Below, in pieces: positions 17,756 through 63,672 of a DNA stretch of 64,000 nt. The DNA comes from Eutreptiella sp. 'Long Island Sound 2002' (Eukaryota > Euglenozoa > Euglenophyceae > Eutreptiales > Eutreptiaceae). Under the pieces are notes generated by a model, which was given only the letters and a program-made list of their open reading frames with translations, ran no database searches and was not told the DNA's origin. The position numbers were made by a program, and so were the translations under genes. Numbering within the stretch: position 1 is the first letter of the stretch; every line of letters begins with the position of its first letter. The stretch lies in NCBI GenBank assembly GCA_964036045.1, contig OZ038393.1:45376429-45440428 (forward strand). The letters run 5' to 3'.

Positions 17756-17884
17756 GTGGGTAGCATCGCCATCTTCAATCTCGTCTTGTGCCCATGCTTG
17801 CTGCTTTGTTTCTTGGTTGCTGCAGTGCTGCACCCCTAGGAGTTGTGCTTGCTTGTTGCAGTGCTGCAGCTCTGCCATGCCTTG
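17756..17884 (+). other. Probable intron start after the LHC exon
   Basis: Non-coding sequence rich in TTGCTGC and TGCAG follows the putative donor. It merges at about 17885 into a copy of the Z repeat family. No further LHC exon is recognisable in the window. Confidence 0.45.
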
Positions 17885-18426
<542 letters not shown>

Positions 18427-18428
<2 letters not shown>

Positions 18429-20543: not shown

Positions 20544-20596
20544 TTGGACTTGGAGTATAGGTGTACTCTTAACGGAGTTACCTTCTATTTCGCACC

Positions 20597-28308: not shown

Positions 28309-28475
28309 CTCAGTTGACTGAGCATCCCGACTGAGCCGTCACTGAGCCGTCACCGAGCCGGCTCACTGAGCGCTCACTGAGGGCTCACTGAGCGCTCAGT
28401 GAGCGCGCCAAATGGCTCAGTGAGCGCTCAGTGAGCGCTCAGTGAGAGCTAATTGGGGGCTCACTGAGGGCTCAC
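28309..28475 (+). repeat. Left subterminal array of GAGCGCTC palindromes
   Basis: It begins GACGGCTCAGTTGACTGAGC and continues with repeats of CACTGAGCGCTCACTGAG and GCGCGCCAAATGGC. The same order occurs inverted at 43975-44135. Such dense short palindromes near the ends are candidate transposase binding sites. Confidence 0.85.
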
Positions 28476-28512
28476 TTAACATGCACGGGCACAAATCATC
28501 CATTATAAGCAC

Positions 28513-30261: not shown

Positions 30262-30335
30262 TTTGTGTAGGACGTGTGGTAGAGGTGTATTGCCACATGC
30301 AGTCCCCGTGCTTGCGGCACACTTACCTCTTTTCA

Positions 30336-30702
30336 CATCTCTTTGCTATCCCCCCCCACCTGTTTCCCCTTGATTGTTGTCCCTAGCCTTCCCCCCCCTT
30401 GCCCCTGCAGGATTCACACTCTTCGTCGGGTTGGGGTAGTGGGGTTGCACCAGGGTGTTTGTCCCATCCCCCCCCCCCGGGGGGGATGCCGCCATGGTGT
30501 TTGCCCCCCCCTCCCCCCCGGGGATGCCGCCAGCGTGTTTGTCCCGTCGTACCCCCCCCCGAGGATGCCGCCAGGGTGTTTGTCCCATCCTCCCCCCCCC
30601 CCCCCACCCCCCGCAGCGTCTCCCATGTCCCCTTTGATGCCCCCCTCCGCCCGGTTGATGCCGTAATATGCGCTGCAGCCCCCCCCCCCCCCCCCGCCCT
30701 GG
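30336..30702. other. Upstream region of the transposase with a C-rich minisatellite
   Basis: Three to four copies of a roughly 50-bp unit (GGGGATGCCGCCAGNGTGTTTGTCCC type, with C runs) lie at about 30445-30600. Another C run (30679-30695) forms part of the LINE2 target site. No gene is seen. Confidence 0.6.
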
Positions 30703-31175: not shown

Positions 31176-31324
31176 CGACACGTAAAATCGACAGCAGATA
31201 ACATAGAACTGTGAGCGGTGATGTAGTGCCTGTGATGTAGTGCCTGTGTCCTGGATTTCAACCTGGTGTGTGGAATGATCTGTTGTCTATTCAACCACAG
31301 CTTTCTGTGACTCGTAGTTGAGCA

Positions 31325-36400: not shown

Positions 36401-38662
36401 GGGCGCACGGCTGCAGAGGCCTCGAGGGTAGCGACAGTGGCACACATCTTGTCTGGTGATGCCTGTGCTCCGAGCAACCAGGCTAAAATGGCATACACCA
36501 TTCTCAGAGTGCACACAAGTGGGGGAGTTCAGCGTGGAACTGGGGTTCTCGATGTGCATGGAACTTGTGTTTCGGCCTCTCGAGATGTGCCTGTCATAGT
36601 AGGCATTACACTTGAGCCACTATCAGCGTCTCCTGAGCTTGTGCGTCGGTTCTTAAAACGAGCTCGGACTCTGCGCACGTTCGTTAGGCGGTTTCAGCCC
36701 AATATGCTTCTGGCGTTGCGTGCGACTATGGCTTATTTGGTAGCCATTCTGGACTCTGTGGCAAAGGGCTCCGCCTTGCCTCTCGCAGTGATTACCGAAC
36801 TGCAGATCCCGGTTAATGATGTGATGCGTAGTCTGCTTTTGCTTCCTCGGGATATTGGTGTAGAAGTGTTGCACACTCCTATGTCGTATGGAGGTTGGGG
36901 ATCTGTTTGGCTTCCAGTGCGATGTGAGCTTAATTTTCTGTCTGGCTATCTCTCTGCCCTTGAGTGTCGCAGTTATTTAACTCGCACTGTATTACGTGAA
37001 CAACTACAGCACCCATTGCCTGGAGTTAATGATGATGGGAGTGTCTTTCGTCGTCTCTGCCGGAAGTACCATGTTTGTGTGGGCGCCCCGCCTCATGTTT
37101 ATCCTGCAGCTGATTTATCGTTACCCTTGAATCTTTTACGTGTGCCAGTTTTGTTTGTCACCACTGATGCTGGGCATGTTCCTGGTGAGCTCAGTGAAGC
37201 AAAGGAACGAGGTGGTCTGGGGATCATATTTTCCACAGGTGACAGGGTGCGGCACAGGGTGGTTCTGGGCATTCGGTGTGCAGCGGGGTCCTCCACGATC
37301 CTGGAGTGGTTAGCCAAAATTATAGCTTTGTGGATGCTGGCTCGTGCAGGGTTTCGGGGACGTGTTTGTTTGCTGTGTGACAATGCAGCAGTACAATTGT
37401 GTCACTTCAGTAGATGGGTACGAGCAGCCACCTGGTTCGACAGATTAGCCAAGTGGGTGTTTCAACAGCCTGTGGCCCAGTTCCTCACTGAGTTTTGGTT
37501 GCCAGCACAACATGACTCCGGTGATCGGGGGGTTGCTGCTGAGTGGCAGAAACAGGCAGATGCAGCAGCTACGAGGGGGCTGGATGATCCGGATCGGTAT
37601 CCCGTCCCGTGGGACGTCCTCCTTCAAGTGCTCGACGCGTCTCCTAGGCCGGTTTGTTATCAAGGGCTGGTGGTGCTCAAGATTAACGTCTTCATGGACA
37701 GATTGTATGATATGTCTGTGGGGCGGTCCTCGGCTCTGGGGAGGTGGGTGCTAGAACAGGGGTTTGATGTCTCCTCCTGGGTGCAGGTCTGTCATGACCC
37801 CAGCATTACTCTGTCTCAGCATCGGCAGGCCGCCTACCTTCGTATGCTGCAGTTCCTTCCTCGTGTCTATTTTGAGGTGCCAGACTGTCGTTACTGCGGG
37901 CTGTTCCAGGGTAACGAGCAATCTCATATGAGTGCCTGTGTAGAGCTTTACACTAGACAATGCCGGGCCATCAGGGCTATCGGGGAATGGCTGGCTCGCG
38001 ACGAGGGTTTTACAGTGGTCGCTGTTTGGGACACTGTTTTGCTAATTCGTCGCTCTGGACTTACGTTTTGGGTGGCCGTGGAGGCCGACACCTGCATCAG
38101 CGAGCGACGGTCCTCTCTGTGTTCCATGCCTGGTCATCAGGTGGTTCTGCTGTCCATGTCAGGCCTTGTGTGGGTTTCACAGTCCTCTATTCAGTCTCAG
38201 GTGTATGTCCATACCCGAGTGCGTCAACAGATGTCTCATATTGTCCTCCGATGTTTGCATGAAAGGGTTGATAGCTCGCTGCCTGTTACTGATGGGCTTT
38301 CGCCTGACCTGAGTCTATCGCCGTATGCTGAAAACGGTCCAGTTGCTGCACCTGTCCCTTTTTCTCAGCAAGCGGTCATGGCGTGGGTGGTACGGCGGGA
38401 TCCGCGGTTGGCTGTAACTTATCGTGCCCGCTTTCATGTGAATCTGCCTCCGAGGGTGTTTCGTGATCCTTCTCCCCTGGAATATGTCCTATCCCTGTGC
38501 ACAGACAATCAGTGCATGTTGCACTGTCCTCGACAGTCCCGCCGGGCTGTCGTGCTTTGCGGCTGTCATACTGCTCCGGCGCCCGTGTGGCAGGTGGTGA
38601 TGGCGGGCCCCGGATGGGTACTGGCAGCGGACCATAATTACTCTATGCCGCAGATACAATGA
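33425..38662 (+). CDS. LINE2 ORF2: APE endonuclease, reverse transcriptase and RNase H
   Basis: The frame is open from the codon after the ORF1 TGA to the TGA at 38660-38662, about 1745 codons. Its first in-frame ATG is at about 33533. Domains in order: zinc-ribbon pairs CWEC/CPEC and CPNC (33610-34030); EEP endonuclease from LRTLSINCGG (34315) with AMQELWD and GDFNV (34739-34753); reverse transcriptase with YRPIKMGSSFSR, DGDESGAFD (about 36073), GFAQGC and the FSDD box (about 36378); RNase H with TTDAG (37160), a Glu, LLCDNAA and AEWQKQAD; and a C-terminal CCHC knuckle CRYC...H...C (about 37885-37940). This enzyme nicks target DNA and copies LINE RNA onto it. No disabling change is visible, so this copy may be young. 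How it is translated after the TGA is unclear. Confidence 0.9.
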   Translation, partial: TPVLPPGYITHAECEWVLYQCIAAFPRRRLSELLHHMISTVSDSFSLQSSGLDSPVSEQVKACWECGTIMCFQQHTACPECGSMMFLCLPVASPAPDRAVLPSWVPTVVANVLRHFLAEELRHLFGLLRVWATEVQRRFLYKLRMKDIAVSPPILHVNHVLVFCTRLPDVAQGTGLIPCSPPQAGKLSIACPSLCPNCARPMISEAYCLSLPAGIWAQALCVCQSRGQTYAVRALACRSRVSVHGIHLGKIVPITTTAKALCATTVSSEKCLSVPGWSEQFQSLIFQQPTSVQAEPLRTLSINCGGTAANIAPLLGAVLIHDPDAVAMQELWDVSLHDEVPLKAYVVVAGTVQGPGCGMCFLFHRRLFAPGEYSSQRIQVVNDSRSWLAVMVHHGTGDVVLYTNVHMDPEFNATRKEDVLTEIGGVHRKLRPSAAICLGDFNVPRSKTNCIARQLEKGGALDYLKLDYPSGSYTNIVHSAAGVTETKIDYILVSRHLSIEDFRVYPGVCTHGVLLAEVHGLRGTVSSFQKRYKHRVTTRDTMSTLSCLVAVFWWWMSQISAPPDDWIHAYWVLADRFLFSHSLRRSAEGLMKKGRQLARKQARQDDITEWKTAVQDHLFARGLKLTQEILNQVSITSHTTSALRLKRGMPQPYPNLAMDSLGKDTPELLSIARQQLRFYHLSKGECMNLPVLLFNALPHDRLCIPDDLPFAILFRQLRDGTWSADQEKYAFNIRSLPKQPLFNAKAIRNGLDRGGSDAASLDDVPFSLLQALPFCAMEPLLHYSKLLSLHETALSNVVLQMGILKGGPPHLFNSYRPIKMGSSFSRLFAGVVHDDVVTRGESLGTWCGGLFSYRKELCPAYMALSARAAVALSLWETGECHIIDGDESGAFDMPVRDDVAIFSRLWPGQCAYGDWARGFYGRQQVRLWTVCGLASPITPELGFAQGCTLAATAYTDLGILRSRCLQSLCEGWWLQPGVPLFEFTFSDDRRWFGRTAAEASRVATVAHILSGDACAPSNQAKMAYTILRVHTSGGVQRGTGVLDVHGTCVSASRDVPVIVGITLEPLSASPELVRRFLKRARTLRTFVRRFQPNMLLALRATMAYLVAILDSVAKGSALPLAVITELQIPVNDVMRSLLLLPRDIGVEVLHTPMSYGGWGSVWLPVRCELNFLSGYLSALECRSYLTRTVLREQLQHPLPGVNDDGSVFRRLCRKYHVCVGAPPHVYPAADLSLPLNLLRVPVLFVTTDAGHVPGELSEAKERGGLGIIFSTGDRVRHRVVLGIRCAAGSSTILEWLAKIIALWMLARAGFRGRVCLLCDNAAVQLCHFSRWVRAATWFDRLAKWVFQQPVAQFLTEFWLPAQHDSGDRGVAAEWQKQADAAATRGLDDPDRYPVPWDVLLQVLDASPRPVCYQGLVVLKINVFMDRLYDMSVGRSSALGRWVLEQGFDVSSWVQVCHDPSITLSQHRQAAYLRMLQFLPRVYFEVPDCRYCGLFQGNEQSHMSACVELYTRQCRAIRAIGEWLARDEGFTVVAVWDTVLLIRRSGLTFWVAVEADTCISERRSSLCSMPGHQVVLLSMSGLVWVSQSSIQSQVYVHTRVRQQMSHIVLRCLHERVDSSLPVTDGLSPDLSLSPYAENGPVAAPVPFSQQAVMAWVVRRDPRLAVTYRARFHVNLPPRVFRDPSPLEYVLSLCTDNQCMLHCPRQSRRAVVLCGCHTAPAPVWQVVMAGPGWVLAADHNYSMPQIQ

Positions 38663-44322: not shown

Positions 44323-45045
44323 AACGGAGTTACCTTCACTTATTAGTACACGACGTAGGATGCAGGTGTACTCTTAACGGAGTTACCTTTACTTACTTGC
44401 AACAAAAATACAAACCAAGGTGTACTCTTAACGGAGTTACCTTCACTTACTTGCAACAAATGTACTCACCAAGGTGTACTCTTAACGGAGTTACCTTGAC
44501 TTACTTGCAGCAAAAGTACAAAGCACTCATCCTAGACAACGTTGTGCGCGCGCCTTCTATTGTTGCAAACGGTTTGTTACAACACCCTAAAACAAAGGGT
44601 GATCCATTTTCTAAAACGTACGGTGAACATTTCGGTAGCAAAGCAGGTGTACTCTGAACGTAGTTACCTTCAAATATTGGCGATAACATCGCACTCCATG
44701 CATGGCCACCACATGAGTATAGCCTCAAGAACGCTCAAACAAAGGGTAAGCCATTTTCTAAAACGTACAATAAATAATTCGTTAGCAAAGCAGGTGTACT
44801 CTTAACGGAGTTACCTTCACTTATTTTCGTTCGTTTCAAACCATCCATGACAAACCACGCTAGTGTAGGCACAACAACGCTCAACCAAAGGGTGAATCAT
44901 TTTCCAAACAATACGGTGAACGTTTCGGTTGGAGAGCACGGGTACTCGAAACGGAGTTACCTTCACTTACTTCCCATGTCATTGCACACCATTCATGGCA
45001 AACCACGTTGTGCGCGCATCCGCCATCTTTTCCATCACTTATGTT
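44323..45045 (+). repeat. Helitron-associated satellite, right of the transposon
   Basis: The GTGTACTCTTAACGGAG motif with TTACCTTCACTTA recurs at about 44363, 44420, 44472, 44645 (variant), 44793 and 44935 (variant), spaced 50-170 bp apart. Spacers include CTTGCAACAAA and CAAAGGGTGAATCATTTTC. There is no gene. It continues the array cut at 28103. Confidence 0.85.
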
Positions 45046-45102: not shown

Positions 45103-45880
45103 ACCTTAGAGCCGCATGGTGGAGCCACGTAGAGTTGGGGAGAGGGGTGTAGATTGGAGGAAGTGGTCTAGGAACAACTTTGGAAAAAATGTTTTTTTTC
45201 GCCCTGGGGACCCTGGTGGACCCATCGTTGGCCCCCACTGTGTGTGGGCTGGCCGGCCCTCTGGCTGCACCAAGTGAACACTCGTACAGGGGTCTACATG
45301 TCTCATTGGGCCATTCTGAGGCTTGGAAACCATAAAAAGTGGGGGGTTGCGGGTGGACTAGGTGCCCTCGGAATTCGTTTTTGAGCCACATAGCCCAAGA
45401 TACGGCCCGTTCTTGGTTTCGGGGTGCTGGTGCACATTGCGCAGTTTTTGGGGCTTTTTGGCGCCTTTTTGGGCCGTTTCTCGGACATATCGTGGATTTA
45501 GAGGGCACCAAAGGTCCCTTGGTCACGAGAAAGTCGAGCCGCACGTGGAGTGTAGCAGCCGTTTGCCTTCGTTTGGCTGTTTTGAACCCTTACTAGGGCT
45601 GTTTTGGGCGGAAAATGGCTGTTTTTGGCCCAAAACTGCGCAGATTTGGGAGGGCACCTCCCAACTTGGCGCCACCGCCCCGGGCCGCCACCGGTGAGTT
45701 TTTGTCTCAAAACTTGGATTTGGCAAGGCCACCACCTAGGCTCCAAGATGGCTACATGGGCAAAAGATCCGAAGCGTTGGGACGGAGCAATGGCCAAAAC
45801 GGCAAGGAGACGTGTTGTTGTTGTTGTTGTTGGTGCTTGTTGTTGTTGTTAGCTAAATTTAAGGGGGGAGAGGTGTACTA

Positions 45881-45884
<4 letters not shown>
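45103..45884 (-). mobile_element. Y-family element, copy 2 (rearranged)
   Basis: 45163-45884 matches Y on the minus strand, ending at the left terminal block against (TA)n. 45103-45162 is a plus-oriented Y right end (AGAGGGGTGTAGATTGG). The two pieces are fused head to tail, so about 400 bp of Y is missing. Confidence 0.75.

Positions 45885-45967
<83 letters not shown>
45885..45967. repeat. (TA)n array between Y copy 2 and Z copy 2
   Basis: It is an almost pure TA dinucleotide run with a few TACATA interruptions, bounded on both sides by transposon termini. Confidence 0.95.
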
Positions 45968-45972
<5 letters not shown>

Positions 45973-47778
45973 ATAGTCATAGTCATAACCACTTATCATG
46001 CCGTCTACTGGAGTTACCGGGCATCTTGCGCCGACAGGTGGTTCCTGCCTCGCTCGATCCCGTGGGTCCCAGGGCTGCCTGAGGTGGCCCACAGCATGAC
46101 GGAGGACCCAGAGGACCGGGGATACCGGGCAACCAGGCTTTGGGGGCAGTGGCAACTGCAAAGCGTTAGCATTAGCAACGGCGACGGACGCTGGCCCGTT
46201 TGTTCGCCGGGGGTAAGGGGGCAAGGCAAAGCAGCGCAGCAGCATCGCAACAAGCAGAAAGCAAGGGCACCTCTGTCCGTCGCAAAGCAACAACCAAGGA
46301 ACAAAGCAGCATGCATGCGGCGAAGCGAGAGCTGACCCTCCATCGTTCACGTAGCCCCGCCACTGTGGAGACACCCAACACCCATGACCCCACGTAATCC
46401 ATTGTCGTCCGCGTCCTCGATACTGCCCACCACCCCTGACTCCACGTATCCCTCTGCCAGCACGCAATAGCCCGTATGTGCATAGCCAGGATTTCTGGGA
46501 GGCTCCAGCCTAGCCTGGCCCTCAGCTTTCATCGCCCCCATGTCTCCACATTGTACGCCATCTTCCCACCGCACCAGTCCCCTAGTATAGTACAGAAGCA
46601 CGTTATCAACTCCACGTCCCCGTGGCCCCGTGCTGCCCCCACACCCCAGATATATACCATGCTGGCATCCCATGTCAGGGGCCAGCGCCCAATCTGCTTC
46701 GAGGTATTCATTTGCCCACATATAATATATCTTGAGGGTCTACAGGGGGGGACGCCGGCCGCTTTGCGACGGGAGTGGCGCAACCCGTGAATATCGCTGG
46801 CTGGGATTCGGGCTGGTGGGTGCCGTAGCTTGGTTATCGACCCCCTGTAGGGGTACCCACCAGAGGCTCGCCCCGGGCTGTGGTTACCAGGTGCACCTCA
46901 TCTGCCCTGGCGCCTACCCTTGACCCTTACCTGCACTGATTGGCCAGCTTCCGTGGTTGCGCCTCTTCCGCCACAGCAGCGGCCAGGCCGCAGGTTCGGC
47001 CCCCACCGACGACGTGGCGAGCCTACTTATAGCATTGGCCCGCGCGTCACCCCCCGGACCACTCAGCATGCCGCTCCCCTGCCCTCCTCGCCTCTAGCCG
47101 ACCGGACTGGCGCCCCCCAGGGGTAAGCCGTTACAGTGGTGAGGCGGCTGCATACTCTTCACTACGACGCCGCGCAGTACCGCCGTTGCCACGCCGACGC
47201 TACCTGCTAGCCGCCACGACACTCACCACTGCAACCACAAGGCCATGGTCAGAAGTTAGACTATGTACATGCCCGCAAGCACGGTCCCTCTAGTTTGTTA
47301 ACGGGGCCAGGGGATGCCCCTGCGCTCCCCCTGAGTTGTTAGAGGGGTCGGGGGGACACCCCAGTACCGCCATGCATCCCCGTGCTCCCCCACTGTACGG
47401 CTCCCCAGTACCGCAGCGTTCCCCCACCGTACGGACCCCAGTACCGCCGCGCACCCCCATCATACGGTCCCCTGTACCGCCGCGTACACCCCCACGATGT
47501 CAGTACACCGTCATCTGGAACTTCCCCGCTGCTCCCCCACTGTACGGCTCCCCAGTACCGCCGCGTACCCCCACCGTACGGGTCCCAGTACCGCCGCGTT
47601 GACCCCCAAGACTCCAGTACTCCGCCACCTGGAACTCCACGTGCCCCCTGTGAGCGCTCCTTCCAGGCTGCCATGCCGTCTCCATGACGCCCGCCATACT
47701 GTCCCCCTGATGACCCCACCGTCATAACCTTCCACGCATAGACGGCATGATAAGTGGTTATGACTATGACTATGACTA
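45968..47778. mobile_element. Z-family element, copy 2, with 40-bp terminal inverted repeats
   Basis: Left (45968-46007) and right (47739-47778) ends are perfect 40-bp inverted copies (TAGTCATAGTCATAGTC ... TTATCATGCCGTCTA). Both abut (TA)n arrays. The first 1.76 kb is nearly identical to 61655-63440. The right terminus is joined at ACGCA (47738), where the longer copy continues, so this is a deletion derivative. A CAGTACCGCCGCGT minisatellite spans 47395-47620. Confidence 0.88.
47339..47740 (-). pseudogene. Gly/Tyr/Trp-rich repeat protein fragment in Z copy 2
   Basis: On the minus strand the minisatellite reads as repeats of RRYWGPYGGG. The frame is also open in the longer Z copy. It enters from the terminal repeat with no start of its own, so only a fragment remains here. 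Confidence 0.4.
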
Positions 47779-47850: not shown

Positions 47851-47976
47851 CATTACTACACCCCTCTCCCCTTAAATCTAGCTAACAAGCAACAAGCAAG
47901 CAACAACAAGCAAGCAACAACAAGCAACAAGCACTTCTCCTCACCACAATCTATATATACATATATATATATATAT

Positions 47977-48063
<87 letters not shown>
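47779..48063. repeat. (TA)n arrays around a short Y end
   Basis: (TA)n runs at 47779-47850 and 47953-48066 flank a 100-bp Y left-end fragment with CAAGCAACAAGCAAGC repeats. Confidence 0.9.
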
Positions 48064-48066
<3 letters not shown>

Positions 48067-48067
<1 letters not shown>

Positions 48068-49279
48068 TACTACACCCCTCCCCCCTTAAATCTAGCTAAC
48101 AGGCAACAAGCAAGCAACAACAAGCAAGCAACAACAAGCAACAAGCACTTCTCCTCACCGTTTTGGCCATTGCTCCGCCTCATCGCTCCGGGCTCTACTC
48201 TACTCTAGCCATCTTGGAGCCTAGGTGGTGGCCTTGCCAAATCCAAGTTTTGAGCCAAAAACTCAGCGGTGGCGGCCCGGGGCGGGGGCGCCAAGTCGGG
48301 AGGTGCCCTCCCAAATCTGCGCAGTTCTGGGCCAAAATTAGCCATTTTTCGCCCAAAACAGCCCCAAAACCCGGCTGAAACGCCCAAACGAAGGGATACG
48401 GTGGGTACACTGCACGTGCGGCTTGCCTTCACCGTGTCAAAGAGCTCTCTAGTGCCCTTCAATTCCACGATATGTCCGAGAAACGGCCCAAAAAGGCGCC
48501 AAAAAGCCCCAAAAATTGCGCAATGTGCACCAACACCCCGAAACCAAGAACGGGCCGTATCCTGGGCTAGGTGGCTCAAAAACGAATTCCGAGGGCACCT
48601 AGGCCACCCGCAACCCCCCACTTTTTATGGTTTCCAAGCCTTAGAATCGCCCAACGAGACACATAGACCCCCGTACCTGTGGTCACTTGGTGCAGCCGGA
48701 GGGCCGGCCAGCCCACGCAGAGTGGGTGCCAACGGTGGGTCCACCAGGGTCCCTAGGGCGAAAAAAATGATTTTTTCCAAAGTTGTTCCTAGACCACTTG
48801 GATGCTCAAACAAGTGTTTTTAGGCCGTTTTGAGCCCGTGGTGGCGCGTTTTGGGCCATGGAAAATCCCAAAATGCCTTGAAAATGGGCCGTTTCGGGAC
48901 CACCAATGCGTCAAAAATGGGTCAAAAACGCGTTTTTCCAAAAATGATCCCCGACCATCTATGATGCTCAAACAAGTGGCTTTAGCCCATTTTGAGCCCG
49001 TGGCCACGGGTTTTGGGGCATGGAAAATCCCAAAATGCCTTGAAAATGGGCCATTTTGGGACCAAAAATGGGTCAAAAATGGGTCAAAAACGCGTTTTTC
49101 CAAAAGTGATCCCGGACCATTTGGGATGCTCAAACAAGTGTTTTTAGCCCGTTTTGAGCCCGTTTTGACCGAGTTTAGCCCCTTCCACCACATGTATGCA
49201 CCAAGTTGTGCCCTTCGCACGTACCTTAGAGCCGTATAGTGGAGCCACCTAGAGTTGGGAGAGGGGTGTAGATTGGAGG

Positions 49280-49280: not shown

Positions 49281-49332
<52 letters not shown>

Positions 49333-49341
49333 ATATATTAC
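49281..49341. repeat. (TA)n array
   Basis: The dinucleotide run lies between the right end of Y copy 3 and the left end of Y copy 4. Confidence 0.95.
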
Positions 49342-50562
<1,221 letters not shown>

Positions 50563-51000: not shown

Positions 51001-51115
51001 GAATTGGACTTAGGGAAGAAACGAAGGTAACTCGATTAAGAGTACACCTGTTTTCCAAGTCCATTCGTAGAGCACCTTGTGACGCATTAAGTGTTGCCAT
51101 CCGATTAATGGGCTA

Positions 51116-51330
51116 GTCAAACAAATCTTTTGCCGCACCCAACACTTTGAATTTCTCGGTCGCCATTGGGTCGGTCTTGTTCTTGTCCGGATGAAGAAGT
51201 AGAGATAAAGAGCGGTATTGCCCCTTTACTGCGGTTGCATCTTGGGCCCCCAAGAAGTGCAAGGCATGTGCCTTTCGCCGGCGAAGACTGGTGTTCTCAT
51301 CTGTGATCCTTGTGGACCACTCGGTGATTT
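51116..51330 (-). other. J-like domain of Helitron copy 2
   Basis: KAHALHFLGAQDATAV is followed by GQYRSLSLLLHPDKNKTD, with HPDK at 51183-51194, then MATEKFKVLGAAKDLFD and the stop. Helix-HPD-helix-helix order and the FxxLxxA-like third helix match DnaJ J domains. It ends the protein exactly, as a modular C-terminal addition would. Confidence 0.8.
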
Positions 51331-51999
51331 CTCTCTTCGTTAAAGCCAAATGATCCACCGGGGTACCGGCCGCTCGAGGACGTGACCGGGGGGGTTCGCT
51401 TGATGGTGCCGTTGGATCTTGGTGTGGTCGAGGGCGTTTGCGACTACTCCGTTGCTCGCTGCCCGTTGCACGTTGTCTCTTGGAATGTGGCCCGTTGCTT
51501 TGTTGGGATGTCCTTTTTCTTGAGGAGTGGTTGTCCTCGGAGTTGGTTGACTTTTTGCGCCCTCCTTGGGGTGGATGTGGTTGCGAACGATATGGTACTT
51601 GGCTTGGAGCTTGATGTCGTGCTGGCATAGTAGTTCTTCTGGACTTGGGAACTTTTCTCGAAGGTTTTGCTGTTGGTGTTGGTGGACTTGGGCGCCCAGC
51701 TTTTTGTGTTGTGTTAGGGGTAGGCTTTCTGCTGGCACCTCCCTTTGACCTTGATGTTTCGGAGCGTTGAGCTTGATGTGTTTGTGATGGATCTGGATGA
51801 GCCTGGTTGCTGCCTACCGTTGGGTGTGATGGCCCACGGTTGGTGGCTTGTGGAGAGCAGGTCCAATGGTGTTCGGTTGTGTGGGCATCCAATTCAGCAG
51901 CGGTGACGTCAGGTAGGGCCCCACACTCCGTCATTGCCCGAATGACGGGTTCATCATACATGGTCAAAGCATCCTCGTATGTGGCGTCCTGGAACGTAT

Positions 52000-52640
52000 T
52001 CACTGTGGATCGCAACGTCGTGGAATCAACAGCAAACATTTGAAGGATGCTTGCACAATATGCCAAGAACCATCGTGGGAGCTGTCCCGTCAACGTTTTG
52101 GCGGCGCACCATTGCATGGCGAGCATCACCACGCGGAACCCACAAGTATCAGAATCAGGTTGGGTTCCGTAATGGTGCCACACGAAAGACCAGCCAATCT
52201 TTTTCAACATGACTCGAAACAGAGCCCCGCATTCTGACGAGGCGTCTTTGGAAATGTGAATGACTAGGCTCTTGCAATCCACTTGGAGATTTGTGACCAA
52301 CACGTAGTGGACCCCTATCGTGGAATTTCGGGACGTTAGCAATAATGGTAACGCGCATTTTTCTGTACAAATGAGGCTTAGTGTAGGAAAATGTCGCATG
52401 AGTTGGGCCAGCTGCATGTCGATAATAACAGGTTTCACCCAGTTGGTTCCTGGGGGCAAGAGAACTTCAAGGAGGCACTGGACTGCTGCAGTGGACAACC
52501 ACGCACATTCTGCAAGATGGACATTGTGCCCGATGGAATCATTTCTCTCATCCGGCCAATATTCAATGCTGAAGTGGCAATTACGTGCATCCAAATGCGG
52601 GTAGTCACCAATGGAGGACGGAGGCGGAGACACATGCGAT
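52000..52640 (-). other. C48/Ulp1-like protease domain of Helitron copy 2
   Basis: IGVHYVLV, the following strand LVIHISKD, and WHHYGTQPDSDTCGFRVV give the His, (lost Asp), Gln and Cys order of Ulp1-like proteases. Copy 1 keeps Asp (IHDPKD). Ulp1-type domains cut SUMO or other proteins; a role in processing the element's own polyprotein is only a guess. Confidence 0.7.
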
Positions 52641-55600
52641 TTAGTCGGGTACTGTTTTGGTGGACCCTCAATGTGGTCTTGCTTTCGAAGAATGCGCTCC
52701 CGGAAAACGGCCTTTGTACCACAAGTTGATAGTCCATCAGCCGCACACAAGGTCCGCAACTGAACAACGGACATTTGGCTCAAGACATCGGCACTAAAGA
52801 CATGTGGCTTGTTGTTGCCATCCAACAACTGCACTCCAACATTTGGTTGCTGAGATGTGCCATGAGGCCGTCCGCGCATACGTGGCAACTCCGTTCCGTC
52901 CTCATTGAGGTCGTCAATGTCCAATGACAACTTGTCTCCTTGTAATTGTCTATCAATGTAAGACCACCATGGATATGACACATACTGCAAGATGAGCAAC
53001 ATGTTCACTTTTAAAATGCGGGCATCCAAATTTTTGGGGAAATGAGATTTGGTGTGCCATGAGCGGCATACACACATGATCCCGGCAATGAGAGTGGATG
53101 TGAAGGTTCTACGTGGGTAAGGAGGAATGTGCTGAGCGGGCTTGGGTGCCAAAACATTTGTCGCCACAAACCAATTCCACAGCTGCACGTAGTAGGGGTC
53201 CACAAGGAATGCCTCGCGGCGATAGTTAAGGATATATAGACCTTGCAGGGACCGTGCCCGTGACAATGCAACATACGCATGTGCCGCGGCAAAGAAGGTT
53301 GCCATATCAATCCACACAATCCGGTACGAGCAGCCTTGCGATCCGTGAACAGTACATGCATATCCTGCGAGCATCGGAAATTGTAGTATTTTGAGCTGCA
53401 CGGATGGCCCGTACACGGGGATTATTTGTTGGAACCGACAAATAGGGTACTCCCTAGTGCGACCAATGGGGCACACAACGATAACATCATTGGACCATCG
53501 CTTGATAACAACCATTGTCGAGTTCACCAAACGATTCTGAATACTAACGTTGCGAATTAGCCGGGCTCGCATACCGGCGGCCACAAAAACCTGTCGCGGG
53601 AGCACGCGGCGATTGCGAGAATTGATGTAGTCGCACATGGCTTGATTGGTAGGAGCACCACCCATGTCCACATACGTGGCGTTGAAGGTCACAATATTGG
53701 ATCCCAATTGTGCCATGAAGTGTTCGTTCCACTGATGCATAGCATTCCTGCGTCCCACTAACATGGGGGCATCTTCGAGATCTTGTAGCGAAACATCATT
53801 GTTTGGAGCGATGCGTTGTTCTAGAGTGAGATGATCATCATCTGTTTCCTCCCCAATGCGTACACGATTGAGCAAGTCGATGAATTGTGCATCGTCTTGG
53901 CGCATGACCTCCGTCAACACAAACGGCACAAAATGGTTCCGGAAGAGGGCACTATCGAAGATGTCGAGATCAACAGCGGGAAGCTACAATGGGTCGCCAA
54001 CAAGAAGCATTGTAATTCCTCTGAAAGGATTCCGCTTGTCTCGTCGCACCTTGTGTAGTATGTCATTCAACGTGTGGAGGAGCTTGTTCGACAAAAGTGA
54101 GAACTCATCCACAATAATCATGTCGGCATTACGAATCATCCACCAAAGAATTGTTCCCTCTTTGATTTGCCAATCAAGGTCCAAGGACAAAGAAAACAAG
54201 CTGTGGATGGTTCGGCCACCAACGTTCAGCGCTGCCACGCCACTAGCACCGCACACGAGTATTGAAAATCCACATGCGCGTAGCTTGGCAATCAATAAAC
54301 GTACGACATGAGACTTCCCAGTTCCAGCAACTCCTGTGAGAATGGCACACAACTGAGGTCGGCTACCATCGATGCTAGCCCGACAATGTGTCGATATATC
54401 TAGTGCATCCTTCGGTTGTCGTTGTTGAAAGTGTGCCACAAAGATTTCAAAAACCATGCGTTGCCAATGATTTAGAGCATTGACCAAGGTTTCGGCAGCT
54501 GCGGGGTCATTGGCATTCATAAATGCCTTCAACTCCTCAGCCAACTGGGGATCCAATTCCGCCTCATCAGCAACCATTGGTTCATCGTCACCGGCCCGAT
54601 GCTTGTTAAGCTCATCCAAATCGGACATATAATTGTTGAAGAAGGTTGCGTCAATTATGTCCTCAGCCCGGAGGACCTCTGCAAGAAGACGCAACCGCTC
54701 AACTGAATAACCTCGAGCCTGGGCATTGTTTAGTGTTTCGCGTGCTTCTTCCTCATATCCTCGGAACAGCCCACGAAGGATACACTCCTCCATGTAGGTC
54801 TTCGACACATTGTCCTTCGAAAAGAATCGCTGTTCGTGGTCTTCTTTCGTGAAGGGCTGGGAGAGGAGAATCTTTTGTAAGAGGTACTTTTCGGCGTCCT
54901 CACCGTAGGGAAGGTAGAAATTCCACCTTGGAATAGCAGCGCGCCGGCGCAATCTCCACTTATTGCCCATGTTGTCTCTAATTTCCCGCTCCATGCGCTC
55001 TGGAGGGGACGGCCACCAGTACGAGCGCTCCTTGCCATTGTCAGGAGGGTCGGCTTTATACCGATCACCGTCTACTGCGTCGTCGGAATCACTAGACAGT
55101 GATTCGTTGGCCATATCCTCTGCCGGATTGCTTGCCAAGGCGCTGGCCTCTGAGGGATTGCGCCGTGTACGACGGTAATAGCGGTAGAAGTCGGGGTACT
55201 TCAGTTGCAAACCATCCGGAAGCTCCAAATAGAAATCGTACCTATCTAGGTACCAAACATCTGTAGACGTGTCATCCTCCGGTAGGTGTTTGCGGCGTTT
55301 CAAGCGCCCCAACTTAGGCCATGGATCCGTTGGAATCCATACAACCTCTCTGCTACCCCTACATTGATGAATGCCGAGCAGCATCATTCCATTCTCCATG
55401 CGTCCCAAAGAACGTAGCTTCAGCAAGCGCTCAACGTCAGTGGCATTTGGTGACAGGTTCATTGGAACGGTCAATGATTTTGCAGCTTTGGTGAGATGTT
55501 TCGCAAGGTACAACTCCCGTCCCAAAGATGTGATCCGTTGCACATTGTTGTGGCATTGCAAACGTACTAGAAGACGACATTTGTGAGGCACCACACAAGC

Positions 55601-57989
55601 ATCTTCTTGTTCCTGTCGGCGGTACAATAGGCGTACACCCTTACTGTCCAACTCCTCCTTATGTTGGGGAACCGTAAACGGATACCCTGCCTTGCACTCG
55701 GTAGATACGCGCCCTTGGCCAATGTTGAAACATTTGTCCGGGTAACACTGGTACACCATATTGCACTCCTTGTATAAACTCCGTAGATATGAAGTGAATT
55801 CCGGATCATAGCCATCACTTTCGCGGGGCATTGTAGCGCAGATGACATCATCCGGGATTGAATCTGGTTGGCACCAAACAACACCATGCAAGTGCACTCG
55901 GCCGCGCTCTTGGTATTCAAAGCGGAACCAATAATCGCGAACCGTTCCAAATGGACCTCTCTTGCCAATGGCTAAGAACTCACGCTTGAAGATCTCAACC
56001 CGCTTATGAAATGCAACACATGCCTCCATATCGTACCCGTCTTGAATTGGCTTGGTGGGCCTTGTGCCCTCGGGATATTGTCCGGGCCACACCGCACCTG
56101 CGCGACATCCCTTCTGCACTGCGGCTTGCAAATCAGCCCAATTGTCATTCATCGTCCAAGTAATGAATAGGTCTGCTTTTCCAAGCTCGCGGCTCATTGC
56201 AGTTAGGTCAAGATGCCGTGAGGCCCAATAGGATCGTGTCCCAACTAGCTTGGATGGGACATAAGTTCCATATCGATAGTATGGGTTGAGTTCCGCAGTA
56301 CCTTGATCAACCCCTTCGCCTTCCAAATTCCGATGCATAGAATCAACACCATCGTGGTACGAAGCACGGGCCTTCTTATGTTCGTGTGCGGGGCGTGCTG
56401 ATGATTGGCTCGGGGACTGTGTGGATGATTCGGTACTTGGACATGGAGTTGATTGGCTTGGCTGACCGGGTGATTCAGTGGATTGCGAAGAAGATTGTGC
56501 GTTATGTGATGATTGTCGCTTAGGAGGGGGCTTGGGTCCTGCGGAGCTTTTAGCAGCACGCAAATGTTCCGCAGTGATATCCTCTGCGCGACCACCACGT
56601 TGCGCTTTGAAATTTTGCTGGTTCCAAATAAGTTGATTCTTCATCTCCTTACTCACTTGGAAGAAGGACCACCATCGGTCAGGGCGCCAGCGCTCATCAA
56701 ATGCAAGATAGCGGCTACGGTAATACGCTGCACATCCAATTCCACACCCAACCTTGTATCCACCAACTCCACCAGGATATAAATCCGGCCAAACGCACGG
56801 TTCCAATTTTGGATCGTTGAAATGCAGATACGTGTCGTTCGCCAATGATTGTGCTGCAGCGGTAACGGTCCCCCCTGCACGTTGAAATGGTGCTCGGTGC
56901 ATTAATCCCACTCTGTCTTGGTGAGGGGCAAAATCGGGAATAATGTTCCGCGGTGCATCACACTCCACTGCCCAAGCCACATACTCGTCTTGTAGATGGT
57001 ACTCCAGGCGTTTCCCGTACTTATCCTCAAAAAAACGTTGCGTCAACGTCCCCATTGTAGAAGCGGCATTCTGTAGGTAGCGGTACAATGTCTCATAATG
57101 CGCCAAAAACCGGGAATAAAAGGGGTGAATTTTCTTCAGCAACAGCAATGCTTGGTTCATTTGCCGCGTGTTTTGGGCACTATCCTTCGGCTTTTGATAA
57201 TCGCGAAGCACATCTTCTTTCATGGTCATAAACCCATATAGTGCATTATAATGCTGGCTAGGCTTGCGGCCCACACCAACGGTCCCAATAGCATGGTGCC
57301 ACTGTCGATGACGCAGATCCACGTGCTTAAGGGTATTTGAATACAAAGCACCCAACGCGATTTGCCGTTTTTGATATTCGGTGAGATTCGCCAGTTTGGT
57401 TGGGACATTGTAATGTGTCGTGCCATCCAATTCGTACCCATAATTTATAGGATCGTACTTGGCACGATACTTGCTGCAAACGAGGCATGCATACATACGA
57501 TGTGTCGAATGCCACACCGGCGTATCATACACTTTGAAGGGGCCAATACTCGTGGGATGCAACCGAGGCGGAACGCGAAAAGGTGGTCCTTTGTATTGTA
57601 CATAGTTGGCAAACAAGTCATTTCGGAACTCGAAGATCGCACTAGTAATCACATCTGTGGGTGGCACCCCAAAGAGGTTGGTGGTACGGACTGCACTATC
57701 ATCTCGGGAAACAAGAAACTTGTGCGCACCAACCGGGCCCCAAAGTAGTTGACCACATCGATGGCAAAGGGCATCGAACAGTGGCGAGTACAAAACATCC
57801 AAACCATCAAGCCAATACTCTCGGACAGATTTCAAAGAAATGTGAGATGGCGGCTGGTGTTTCCGGCTGAAAAGCTCTTTCTTAGCGGCACCAACGACCC
57901 CCCGCGATCGAGGATGTGAAGCTTTGGCATGTTGCTTCTCCGGTGTATTGGCGTGTCCACCGACAATGCCCTTGTCGCGTTGCGACTCT

Positions 57990-58360
57990 GGCGTGTTCCT
58001 TGTACCTCCAGTAGAACCCTTGGCAGCTTGTGCCGCAGAGGTGTTCCTTGCACCTCCAGTAGAACCCTTGGCAGCTTGTGCCGCAGAGGTGTTCCTTGCA
58101 CCTCCAGTAGAACCCTTGGCAGCTTGTGCCGCAGAGGTGTTCCTTGTACCTCCAGTAGAACCCTTGGCAGCTTGTGCCGCAGAGGTGTTCCTTTCACCCT
58201 TGGCAGCTTGTGCCGCAGAGGTGTTCCTTGCACCCTTGGCAGCTTGTGCCGCAGGGGTGTTCCTTGCACCCTTGGCAGCTTGTGCCGCAGAGGTGTTCCT
58301 TGCACCCTTGGCAGCTTGTGCTTGTGAGGTGTTCCTTGCACCCTTGGCGGCTTGCGGTTG
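57990..58360 (-). repeat. Coding tandem repeat (AAKGxRNT units) in Helitron copy 2
   Basis: Units of 11 codons (AAQAAKGARNTS type), four of them extended by STGG, repeat about ten times. Copy 1 has shorter related units (ESQAAKGSSGGKKNT) in a frameshifted stretch at 20800-21000. The Ala/Lys composition resembles DNA-binding tails such as histone H1. Confidence 0.85.
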
Positions 58361-58570
58361 TGCCGTGTTAAGACTTGCCATGGATGATGATTGCAGTCCA
58401 CGCTTCGCTCGCTTGTTCAACCGCTTCATGAGAGTGTGCCGCATACTAGCATGGCGACGGCGAATGGTTGGTGGCGCAATTTGGGGGTGCTGCACAATGA
58501 AGTCCCCAACATCGAAGTCTACGCCGGCTTCCAAACATTGTTGCAACTCTTGTTCCCAGCGATTGGACAT

Positions 58571-59088
58571 GGAGAGTATGAACGTAACTCGGTTAAGAGT
58601 ACACGTATATTCCAAATCCAACCGCGAAGAACAGAGCACACAATGAAAGAAAAGGGTCCTGTAGCAGAAGAAGTAGAGGGAAATGCAAATGTATTGGTAC
58701 AATGCACATCTCACAACGCAGCACCACAGTACCCATGTTCCATGTCCCATTTCCCACTATCCCATGCCATGATGCCACAATCATGACCTACATGGTGTCA
58801 CATTCATTACCTATTATGCTCGCCATGGTCCCATGTCCCTTGTCCCAAAATCCCATGATCCACCAATCATTACCTACATGATGCCACAATCATTACTTAC
58901 TATGGTCCCCTGTCCCGCCTGCAACCCTTGTTACCAGCAATTGGATTGGACATGGAGGGTATGAACGTAACTCGATTAAGAGTACACGTATACTCCAAAT
59001 CCAACCGCGCAGAACAGAGCACACAATGAATGAGAAGGGTCCCGCAGCAGAAGAGGTAGAGGGAAAAAGTAACTAGGCTCTAGGATAG
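58571..59088 (-). repeat. Helitron 5' end and a second tandem copy of it
   Basis: The motif with the ATGTCCAATC start region occurs at 58560-58610 and again at 58945-59000, about 385 bp apart and both on the minus strand. A TCCCATG-rich stretch lies between (58735-58920). No other gene is seen. Confidence 0.8.
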
Positions 59089-59089
59089 C

Positions 59090-60400
59090 CACCATACCAT
59101 ACCATCAGCACGCAACAAACGACTTTTGTATAGCGCCTCGTCTTGCGGAATCTGCCGCTCACAGCATGGATGGTTTGATCAACCCGGATTTTTTGATGAA
59201 AGAACCTAGTGCACAAGTTCAGCACGCAACAAACGACGTTTGTATAGCGCCTCGTCTTGCGGAATCTGGCGCTCATAGCATGGAGGATTTGATCACCTTG
59301 AACTTTTCGATGAAAGAACCTAGTGCACAAATTCAGCACGCAACAAACGACTTTTGTATAGCGCCTCGTCTTGCGGAATCTGGCGCTCATAGCATGGAGG
59401 ATTTGATCACCTTGAACTTTTCGATGAAAGGACCTAGTGCACAAGTTCAGCACGCAACAAACGACTTTTGTATAGCGCCTCGTCTTGCGGAATCTGGCGC
59501 TCACAGCATGGATGGACTTTTCGATGAAAGACCCTAGTGCACAAGTTCAGCACGCAACAAACGACTTTTGTATAGCGCCTCGCCTTGCGGAATCTGGCGC
59601 TCAAAGCATGGAAGATTTGATCACCTTGAACTTTTCGATGAAAGAACCTAGTGCACAAGTTCAGCACGCAACAAACGACTTTTGTATAGCGCCTCGTCTT
59701 GCGGAATCTGGCGCTCACAGAATGGATTGACTTTTCGACGAAAGAACCTAGTGCACAAATTCAGCACGCAACAACCGACTTTTGTATAGCGCCTCGTCTT
59801 GCGGAATCTGGCGCTCATAGCATGGATGATTTGATCACCCTGAACTTTTCGATGAAAGAACCTAGTGCACAAATTCAGCACGCAACAAACGACTTTTGTA
59901 TAGCGCCTCGTCTTGCGGAATCTGGCGCTCATAGCATGGAAGATTTGATCACCTTGAACTTTTCGATGAAAGAACCTAGTGCACAAGTTCAGCACGCAAC
60001 AAACGACTTTTGTATAGCGCCTCGTCTTGCGGAATCTGGCGCTCACAGCATGGATGGACTTTTCGATGAAAGAACCTAGTGCACAAATTCAGCACGCAAC
60101 AAACGACTTTTGTATAGCGCCTCGTCTTGCGGAATCTGGCGCTCATAGCATGGAGGATTTGATCACCCTGAACTTTTCGATGAAAGAACCTAGTGCACAA
60201 ATTCATCACGCAACAAACGACTTTTGTATAGCGCCTCGTCTTGCGGAATCTGGCGCTCATAGCATGGAGGATTTGATCACCTTGAACTTTTCGATGAAAG
60301 GACCTAGTGCACAAGTTCAGCACGCAACAAACGACTTTTGTATAGCGCCTCGTCTTGCGGAATCTGGCGCTCACAGCATGGACGGTTTGATCACCCCAGA
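59090..60400. repeat. 12-copy satellite with 114- and 100-bp units
   Basis: GTATAGCGCCTCGTCTTGCGG-type blocks start at 59128, 59242, 59356, 59470, 59570, 59684, 59784, 59898, 60012, 60112, 60226 and 60340. The shorter unit lacks 14 bp between GGA and CTTTTCGATG. Identity between units is high. Both strands are open in some frame through each 114-bp unit, since 114 is divisible by three; I do not take these as genes. Confidence 0.95.
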
Positions 60401-60404
60401 CTTT

Positions 60405-61360
60405 TTGATGGTTGCCATTTTCCATGGGCCAAAATGCATCACCACGGGCTCAAAATGGGCTAAAAACACTTGTTTGAGCATCCAAAATGGTCTAGGATCA
60501 CTTTTGGAAAAACGCGTTTTTGACCCATTTTTGAGCCATTTTTGGTCTCAAAACGGCCCATTTTCAAGGCATTTTCAGATTTTCCCTGGCCCAAAACACG
60601 CCACCACGGGCTCAAAACGGCCTAAAAACACTTGTTTGAGCATCCCAAGTGGTCTAGGAACAACTTTGGAAAAAATGATTTTTTTCGCCTTGGGGACCCT
60701 AGTGGACCCACCGTTGGCCCCCACTGTGCGTGGGCTGGCCGGCCCTCTGGCTGCACCGAGTGACCAGTGGTACGGGGGTCTACATGTCTCATTGGGCCAT
60801 TCTGAGGCTTGGAAACCATAAAAAGTGGGGGGTTGCGGGTGGACTAGGTGCCCTCGGAATTCGTTTTTGAGCCACATAGCCCAAGATACGGCCCGTTCTT
60901 GGTTTCGGGGTGCTGGTGCACATTGCGCAGTTTTTGGGGCTTTTTGGCGCCTTTTTGGGCCGTTTCTCAGACATATCGTGGAGTTAGAGGGCACCAAAGG
61001 TCCCTTGGTCACGAGAAAGTCAAGCCGCACGTGCAGTGTAGCAGCCGTTTGCCTTCGTTTGGTTGTTTTGAAGCCTTACTAGGGCTGTTTGGGCGAAAAA
61101 TAGCTGTTTTTGGCCCAAAACTGCGCAGATTTGGCAGGGCACCTCCCGACTTGGCGCCACCGCCCCGGGCCGCCACCGGTGAGTTTTTGGCTCAAAACTT
61201 GGATTTGGCAAGGCCACCACCTAGGCTCCAAGATGGCTACATGGGCAAATGATCCGAAGCGTTGGGACGGAGCAATGGCCAAAACGGCAAGGAGACGTGT
61301 TGTTGTTGTTGTTGCTTGCTTGCTTGCTTGTTAGCTAGATTTAAGGGGAGAGGGGTGTAG

Positions 61361-61362
<2 letters not shown>
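60405..61362 (-). mobile_element. Y-family element, copy 5
   Basis: On the minus strand it begins at ACTACACCCCTCTCCCC next to (TA)n at 61362 and runs through the same landmarks as copies 3 and 4, with two internal 150-bp units. It stops without the right terminal block at the satellite border. Confidence 0.8.
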
Positions 61363-61659
<297 letters not shown>

Positions 61660-63048
61660 ATAGTCATAGTCATAACCACTTATCATGCCGTCTACTGGAG
61701 TTACCGGGCATCTCGCGCCGACAGGTGGTTCCTGCCTCGCTCGATCCCGTGGGTCCCAGGGCTGCCTGAGGTGGCCCACAGCATGACGGAGGACCCAGAG
61801 GACCGGGGATACCGGGCAACCAGGCTTTGGGGGCAGTGGCAACTGCAAAGCGTTAGCATTAGCAACGGCGACGGACGCTGGCCCGTTTGTTCGCCGGGGG
61901 TAAGGGGGCAAGGCAAAGCAGCGCAGCAGCATCGCAACAAGCAGAAAGCAAGGGCACCTCTGTCCGTCGCAATGCAGCAACCAAGGAACAAAGCAGCACG
62001 CATGCGGCGAAGCGAGAGCTGACCCTCCATCGTTCACGTTGCCCCGCCACTGTGGAGACACCCAACACCCATGACCCCACGTAATCCATTGTCGTCCGCG
62101 TCCTCGAAACTGCCCACCACCCCTGACTCCACGTATCCCTCTGCCAGCACGCACTAGCCTGTATGTGCACAGCCAGGATTTCTGGGAGGCTCCAGCCTAG
62201 CCTGGCCCTCAGCTGTCATCGCCCCCATGTCTCCACATTGTACGCCATCTTCCCACCGCACCAGCCCCCTAGTATAGTACAGAAACACGTTACCAACTCC
62301 ACGTCCCCGTGGCCCCGTGCTGCCCCCACACCCCAGATATATACCATGCTGGCATCCCATGTCAGGGGCCAGCGCCCAGTCTGCATCGAGGCATTCACCT
62401 GCCCACATATAATATACCTTGAGGGTCTACAGGGGGGGACGCCGGCCGCTTTGCGACGGGAGTGGCGCAACCCGTGAATATCGCTGGCTGGGATTCGGGC
62501 TGGTGGGTGCCGTAGCTTGGTTATCGACCCCCTGTAGGGGTACCCACCAGAGGCTCGCCCCGGGCCGTGGTTACCAGGTGCACCTCATCTGGCCCACATA
62601 CAATGCCCTGGCGCCTACCCTTGACCCTTACCTGCACTGATTGGCCAGCTTCCGTGGTTGCGCCTCTTCCGCCACAGCAGCGGCCAGGCCGCAGGTTCGG
62701 CCCCCACCGACGACGTGGCGAGCCTACTTATAGCATTGGCCCGTGCGTCACCCCCCGGACCACTCAGCACGCCGCTCCCCTGCCCTCCTCGCCTCTAGCC
62801 GACCGGACTGGCGCCCCCCAGGGGTAAGCTGTTACAGTGGTGAGGCGACTGCATACTCTTCACTACGACGCCGCGCAGTACCGCTGTTGCCACGCCGACG
62901 CCACCTGCTAGCCGCCACGACACTCACCACTGCAACCACAAGGCCATGGTCAGAGGTTAGACTATGTACATGCCCGCAGGCACGGTCCCTCTAGTTTGTT
63001 AACGGGGCCAGGGGATGCCCCCGCGCTCCCCCTGAGTTGTTAGAGGGG

Positions 63049-63672
63049 TCAGGGGGACACCCCAGTACCGCCATGCATCCCCGTGGTCCCCCACTGTACG
63101 GTTCCCCAGTACCGCCGCGTTCCCCCACCGTACGGACTCCAGTACCGCCGCATACCCCCACCATACGGTCCCCTGTACCGCCGCGTACACCCCCACGATG
63201 TCAGTACACCGTCATCTGGAACTTCCCCGCTGCTCCCCCACTGCTCGGCTCCCCAGTACCGCCGCGTACCCCCGCCGTACGGATCCCAGTACCGCCGCGT
63301 TGACCCCCCAGACTCCAGTACTCCGCCACCTGGAACTCCACGTGCCCCCTGTGAGCGCTCCCTCCAGGCTGCCATGCCGTCTCCACGACGCCCGCCATAC
63401 TGTCCCCCTGATGACCCCACCGTCATAACCTTCCACGCACACATCTTCGCCCCGTCGCCGCTCCTGGGGCCTGCAGGCTGACCCCGCAACCCCGTGTAAC
63501 ACTCCCAGGGGGCGCCGCAGCGCTGTAACCCCCAAACAACTCCGTGCACCCCCGGTGTATCCCGAGCAACCACTCCCAAGACTGCCGTAGCCGGGCCGCC
63601 AGTAGAGACCCCGGTGCCATGGGAATACCCTACAGGCGTTTGGGCCTTATTACCCTGGTCGGGACGACCCAT
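63049..63672 (-). CDS. Gly/Tyr/Trp-rich repeat protein fragment in Z copy 3
   Basis: This is an open minus-strand frame of about 207 codons. Its second half is repeats of RRYWGPYGGG or close variants, encoded by the CAGTACCGCC minisatellite. The first half has no recognised domain. The start (63672) is not an ATG, so the frame probably continues from upstream coding sequence near the OTU-like remnant. The same frame is kept in copy 2, a weak sign of coding. Function unknown. Confidence 0.4.
   Translation of the reverse strand: MGRPDQGNKAQTPVGYSHGTGVSTGGPATAVLGVVARDTPGVHGVVWGLQRCGAPWECYTGLRGQPAGPRSGDGAKMCAWKVMTVGSSGGQYGGRRGDGMAAWRERSQGARGVPGGGVLESGGSTRRYWDPYGGGTRRYWGAEQWGSSGEVPDDGVLTSWGCTRRYRGPYGGGMRRYWSPYGGGTRRYWGTVQWGTTGMHGGTGVSP

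Follow-up and report, generated by a model that had tools for sequence, protein, structure and literature searches.

A Helitron polyprotein with a C-terminal J domain

We analysed 64,000 nucleotides (nt) of Eutreptiella sp. 'Long Island Sound 2002' (assembly GCA_964036045.1, contig OZ038393.1, positions 45,376,429 to 45,440,428), a stretch that we call the window, and found on its minus strand, at 58570-51113, a broken Helitron gene that we call the window copy. We consider it fairly probable that this copy is a member of a lineage-specific Helitron family whose transposase, encoded by a single open reading frame (ORF), gained a SAP domain, an Ulp1-like protease and a C-terminal J domain, the last of which would recruit Hsp70 to Rep-DNA complexes. 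The Rep-Pif1-SAP-protease-J architecture is real and family-wide; it is found in unbroken copies and in P0014, a protein encoded on another contig. Furthermore, Helitron_like_N and Pif1 stand in one protein, which identifies it as a Helitron.

An original prediction, made from the letters of the window alone, had described these domains as one frame. The order Rep, Pif1, SAP, protease and HPDK does lie in a single register, but the gene is encoded by the minus strand (across 51113-58570, the plus strand has many stops throughout) and the frame is broken by an in-frame TAG. The reading has 2485 residues, starts with MSNRW at 58570 and finishes with a TAG at 51113. Its start is backed by P0014 (MSWQSE) and by a second copy in the window (MSNRWEHEW). 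This second copy (copy 2, 20597-27841, plus strand, J domain at 27614-27832) is degenerate and belongs to another subfamily. It had been said to have the same domain order, and the alignment to the window copy bore this out: identity is 64-88% over four long matching stretches and 39% at the N-terminus, with frameshifts and stops.

The internal TAG is residue 1529 (53984-53986) and lies within the helicase motif GDPL(Q)LPAV, at a conserved Gln where three unbroken copies read GDPLQ. A reassigned TAG codon was ruled out, because the final stop is also TAG and copy 2 has stops at positions where its relatives have Glu, Arg and Tyr.

When the window copy was read as two halves, Pfam matched the HUH Rep region (Helitron_like_N, 55271-56293, with HLH at residues 893-895) at E 1.4e-23 and the Pif1-type superfamily 1 (SF1) helicase (53051-54403) at E 1.6e-21, both before the internal TAG; profile matches in the PDB to PIF1 and Helraiser agree with the latter. 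After the TAG, the J domain (51116-51340, HPD at residues 2460-2462) matched DnaJ (PF00226) at E 2.4e-8 with 34.4 bits (cut-off 27.8). Among the profiles named in the original prediction, SAP (52682-52792) remained just below its cut-off in this copy, with E 1.1e-4 and 22.2 bits (cut-off 23.9). Between SAP and the J domain are the protease region (51986-52543), with its His/Gln/Cys set, and a basic low-complexity linker (51341-51880). The linker alignment contains a short conserved TP(T/S)RK(V/I)PK-like motif; this TPTRKVPK-like motif, at 51641-51673 on the minus strand, is common to the subfamilies within an otherwise variable linker and is perhaps a localisation or binding signal. All these features are on the minus strand.

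The Rep motifs had also been predicted, and the profile match agrees with this, except that the second Tyr of YxxxY is His in the window copy (YLAKH, 55496-55498). Copy 2, P0012 and P0014 keep the Tyr, and 19 of the 20 relatives fetched from the genome match the search motif. In the protease, the position 18 residues after the His is Ile, where the aligned relatives have Asp. Owing to the in-frame TAG and these two substitutions, the window copy is very probably inactive. In Helraiser, cleavage in vitro was lost when the second Tyr was changed, and transposition was lost when either Tyr was changed (PMC4778049).

The architecture in other copies and related proteins

We searched the genome (2.28 Gb, 2205 contigs) with Helitron_like_N and scored the best 150 of 863 candidates, among which at least about 53, counted by eye, show the partial match that is typical of the J-domain family. 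Twenty family copies, picked among the longest frames, were fetched. Three of them have an unbroken frame from MS to the J domain, namely L009 (2527 aa), L010 (2495 aa) and L012 (2623 aa), and all three match Helitron_like_N, PIF1 and SAP above the Pfam cut-offs, with SAP reaching 29.6-30.7 bits against the required 23.9. The expectation that other full-length members carry the J domain was thus confirmed by these three copies and by P0014. An N-terminal tandem repeat with units of 36 and 48 nt (AAQAAKGARNTS type, 57921-58390, minus strand) was seen in the window copy, and its copy number may account for protein lengths from 2485 to 2623.

The J-domain DNA is in place in 17 of the 20 fetched copies, and 16 of these 17 have an intact HPD (L021 reads HPE). 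Beyond the fetched stretch of two of the others, L014 and L023, the same strand carries a J copy, although it is not proven to belong to them; for L019, none was seen there. In a DNA search of the genome with the J segment, the best 40 of 173 candidates were scored, and all 40, on many contigs, are full length and 98-100% identical to the query, which came from the second subfamily, so that this count refers to that subfamily and not to the one of the window copy. The proportion of synonymous differences (pS) between L009 and L012 is only 0.01, and therefore the family appears to have moved recently.

When proteins were searched with the C-terminal part, 12 relatives came up, of which P0001 (37 member sequences) and P0009 (39 member sequences) have both SAP and DnaJ above the cut-off. 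DnaJ scores above the cut-off are 32.9 bits in P0001, 31.5 in P0004, 29.2 in P0014 and 27.9 in P0009. Pfam found no DnaJ match in P0002, P0005, P0006, P0007, P0008, P0010, P0011 and P0012. Of these, P0002 and P0011 finish in other reading frames at the expected site of the J domain, and the remaining six are shorter pieces or rearranged; the SAP score of P0006 is also below the cut-off (16.9 bits).

The protein search with the helicase gave 84 proteins, from candidates of roughly 1370-4350 aa, a size range that passes over broken frames. DnaJ was listed for P0014 and for none of the other 83, eight of which are longer than 3000 aa. P0014 is a single unbroken frame of 2420 aa on a contig of 8321 bases, 64% identical to the window copy in the helicase and 49% overall. 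It matches Helitron_like_N, PIF1 and DnaJ above the cut-offs, and it retains YxxxY, the helicase motifs, the protease His/Asp/Gln/Cys and, near its end, RKSYRKLAIQFHPDKN (HPDK). A full-length query with C-terminal words gave no match at E<=0.01; P0014 was also missed, so such searches do not show absence. Peptide-pattern searches of viral contigs and prokaryote genomes confirmed no close relative.

Fold of the J domain and selection on it

The original prediction called for a structural check of the terminal J-like domain. AlphaFold2, run on the relative P0001, gave a confident C-terminal J domain with helices I-III and the HPD between II and III, and the fold search on the same relative agrees.

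The ratio of nonsynonymous to synonymous proportions of differences (pN/pS) between the window copy and L009 was 0.10 in Rep, 0.13 in Pif1, 0.31 in the protease, 0.33 in SAP, 0.40 (0.28-0.54) in the J domain and 0.68 (0.57-0.80) in the linker. The comparison with copy 2 ranked the six regions in the same order, and the linker was the least constrained region (0.68-0.70). With pS about 0.7, synonymous differences are close to saturation; we therefore compare the ratios region to region and do not read them as exact. The pattern of substitutions is that of selection on the J domain. Moreover, the J domains of P0014 and the window copy are only 28% identical, as low as the linker, and nevertheless the signature YR.L...HPDKN is retained, which is the pattern that would be expected if the function of the J domain is selected.

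The protease region and points that weigh against the proposal

The protease had been predicted as Ulp1-type from a His/Gln/Cys set, and these residues are present in the window copy (His2088, Ile2106 where relatives have Asp, Gln2137 and Cys2143). P0001, P0009 and P0014, among others, have the CE-clan-type order His-Asp-Gln-Cys, with Asp at His+18 and with Gln and Cys 6 apart, which resembles the Ulp1 spacing. Some relatives deviate: P0006 reads His for Gln and P0002 reads Glu for the Gly after Cys.

Several observations weigh against our proposal. Peptidase_C48 was not matched in Pfam at E<=10 (the HMMER filters drop most matches above about 0.1), and therefore we did not file the protease as C48, although its residue spacing and weak fold matches suggest that it belongs to the same clan (CE). 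A profile search of the PDB with this region found no protease, and the structural model is of low confidence, the first AlphaFold2 model having mostly a predicted local distance difference test (pLDDT) score <50. The protein ends at helix III of the J domain, without helix IV, and both Rep and the helicase are under stronger constraint than this domain. The DnaJ scores of L009, L010 and L012 (26.7-26.8 bits) are slightly below the cut-off and that of P0003 (24.5 bits) is further below it; L011 is open for 2482 aa, but its stop lies inside the J domain; and the SAP match of P0014 is weak (12.3 bits). Hsp70 binding, protease activity and transposition are all predictions from sequence. Finally, we do not claim a boundary of the element: when the three unbroken copies were compared together with the sequence on either side of each, the 3' sides parted from one another at slightly varying positions within the repeat array.

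Possible role of the J domain

Starting from the observed architecture and the constraint on the J domain, we propose that Rep would nick and circularise the element and Pif1 would unwind it, as in Helraiser, whereas SAP would probably add DNA binding. The likeliest role of the J domain would be to bring host nuclear Hsp70 to the Rep-DNA complexes at the repeat arrays, in order to remodel or release them. The protease might remove ubiquitin or SUMO from transposition proteins, or it might cleave the polyprotein. As parallels for this role of the J domain, DnaJ and DnaK convert iteron-bound plasmid initiators and strip phage initiation complexes, and Hsc70 acts on the large T antigen of simian virus 40 (SV40). 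In wheat, heat stress together with reduced methylation mobilises a Helitron (PMC13286980), and this makes a chaperone link worth considering, although it does not demonstrate the link itself. Tentatively, the family might be a distinct class of Helitrons with its own Hsp70 co-chaperone module, whose transposition would depend on, and perhaps respond to, the chaperone state of the host, for example under heat stress, and whose Ulp1-like protease, in the slot that OTU occupies in its sister group, would shield the complex from ubiquitin/SUMO control.

The J domain could instead be directed at host regulators and might, for instance, open a replication window; a model for this is SV40 large T antigen, which employs Hsc70 against proteins of the Rb family. 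T antigen requires its J domain for its association with Hsp70 (PMC7356129); however, that domain is N-terminal and the one described here is C-terminal, and we regard this explanation as unlikely. We give the same low weight to a simple aid to folding or solubility, without a specific step in transposition. This would suit a polyprotein of 2500 residues in which a long low-confidence, low-complexity linker precedes the J domain, but L035 and L036, two Helitrons of the same genome, do without one, and DnaJ is not listed for the other 83 proteins of the helicase search, eight of which exceed 3000 aa.

Slightly less likely again is that the J domain is a captured fragment of a host gene, carried as a passenger without any role in transposition. 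Helitrons do mobilise host sequences (PMC4778049), and a domain at the extreme C-terminus that evolves faster than Rep or the helicase could be such cargo. Nevertheless, it stays in frame in the three unbroken ORFs and in P0014, it is common to subfamilies whose synonymous divergence is nearly saturated, its pN/pS is lower than that of the linker and its signature residues outlast the rest. A chance match, a one-off fusion or an assembly chimera, which the broken window copy and its SAP score below the cut-off might suggest, can be dismissed, given the unbroken copies, P0014 on another contig, the J DNA in most of the fetched copies, the 40 scored genome matches on many contigs and the confident J fold. 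Recruitment of Hsp70 to Rep-DNA complexes is the explanation that we prefer. The domain order of the original prediction stands in substance once corrected, and its suggestion that Hsp70 recruitment and protein processing or SUMO biology may belong to the cycle of the element is partly supported.

Repeats and other features of the window

The window contains 12 occurrences of a 27-nt palindrome, AGGTGTACTCTTAACGGAGTTACCTTC (<=3 mismatches), which never turned up in shuffles and which flanks the genes on both sides. One occurrence, with 2 mismatches, is 3' of the window copy (51023-51049, minus strand), and five are 5' of copy 2 (19679-20585, plus strand). The two fullest forms tried fold as DNA at -4.1 and -6.9 kcal/mol (8 and 3 of 200 shuffles fold equally well) and the other two at -2.7 and -3.4 kcal/mol (24 and 18 of 200). 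The predicted hairpin is therefore modest. As a guess, the palindrome is a candidate binding site of Rep or a stop signal. Five more palindromes are at 44364-44818 (plus strand), beside a block (45161-47738) in which parts of 60647-63439 recur with 94-97% identity; this region looks like a remnant or a non-autonomous copy.

On the 5' side of the window copy there is a tandem array with spacings of 114 and 100 nt (58959-60470, minus strand), and also a flank (60417-62004, minus strand) whose counterpart at copy 2 (17793-19361) has the same relative orientation and is 84% identical. Helitron1 elements have 5'-TC and CTRR-3' ends and insert between A and T, whereas Helitron2 elements are bounded by asymmetric terminal inverted repeats, with hairpins at either end. 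The long inverted repeats at 49292-50253 and 60447-61410 were ruled out as terminal repeats, as the repeat recurs at 45161-45969, at 47949-49028 and upstream of copy 2.

Elsewhere in the window, an array of GCTCACTGAGC-type repeats with a spacing of 11 nt (28326-28493) recurs near 39200, 41800 and 44000. Two successive long open frames on the plus strand (33425-38662 and 31322-33424), the second with an endonuclease/exonuclease/phosphatase domain (7.4e-9), are perhaps a retrotransposon without long terminal repeats (non-LTR); no reverse transcriptase profile matched them at E<=0.01. Two adjoining open frames on the minus strand (28513-30345; 378 and 231 aa) have no Pfam match at E<=0.01. The dinoflagellate spliced-leader pattern had 0 matches in the window, and Rfam had 0 at the gathering score.

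Comparison with known systems

Among the titles listed in our literature searches, none describes a J domain in a Helitron; this is weak evidence, as subscription journals and Repbase were largely outside its coverage. The term 'J domain' is absent from the main text of PMC2575219, and 'J domain', 'DnaJ' and 'Ulp1' are absent from that of PMC9741609. The accessory domains or genes reported in Helitrons include OTU, a tegument-type deubiquitinase and AP (apurinic/apyrimidinic) endonuclease (PMC9741609), RPA (PMC4289320) and a TET/JBP dioxygenase (PMC12730594).

In a tree of 38 rows, the J-domain family groups with P0014 in a single clade (support 100), which joins P0015-P0018 in a clade of 8 rows with a Shimodaira-Hasegawa-like approximate likelihood ratio test (SH-aLRT) value of 99; this tree was built quickly and has long branches, and the node grouping P0015-P0018 is left open in it (91). 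The proteins of this nearest group also combine Rep, Pif1 and a cysteine protease, which is C-terminal in P0015 and P0016. However, their protease is OTU instead of Ulp1-like, and their helicase is about 30% identical to that of the family. OTU is above the cut-off in P0015 and P0016, listed in P0017 and below the cut-off in P0018 (19.2 bits). No DnaJ was found at E<=1 in P0015, P0016 and P0018, and none is listed for P0017. The comparison points to an exchange of unrelated protease classes in the C-terminal protease slot of Helitrons.

L036 (1558 aa) and L035, whose frame of 1955 aa is still open where the fetched stretch ends, share Rep and Pif1 with the family, but they belong to another clade and lack SAP, protease and J domain (Pfam, E<=0.1). 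They and L001-L008 make up a further Helitron group of the genome, one in which long frames are numerous and often measure about 1924 aa.

Helraiser is, to our knowledge, a Rep-helicase without J domain, SAP or protease. Like the family, it combines HUH with two tyrosines and an SF1 helicase (PMC4778049), and its PDB chain 7lcc was matched by profile. Helentrons, with their herpes-tegument-type deubiquitinase and OTU, resemble the family in having a Helitron ORF with deubiquitinase-type accessory proteases, and three zebrafish Helitron protease domains were shown to act on ubiquitin, with two of the three acting on NEDD8 as well; unlike the family, whose protease is placed with another clan, they have an AP endonuclease (PMC9741609). 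The Helentron-type AP endonuclease profile PF03372 gave no match in the window copy (E<=10), P0014 (E<=1) or L009, L010 and L012 (E<=0.01).

If our proposal is true, a co-chaperone built into the Rep-helicase would give a direct handle on the disassembly of the covalent Rep-DNA complexes of Helitrons. SV40 large T antigen has an initiator-helicase layout with an N-terminal J domain. As in the family, the J domain is fused to a replication initiator helicase, and it is needed for the association with Hsp70 (PMC7356129); unlike the family, T antigen is viral, its helicase is of superfamily 3 (SF3) and its J domain is at the other end, and we do not claim common ancestry. A J domain used by a Helitron would therefore parallel the use of one by the initiator of a DNA virus.

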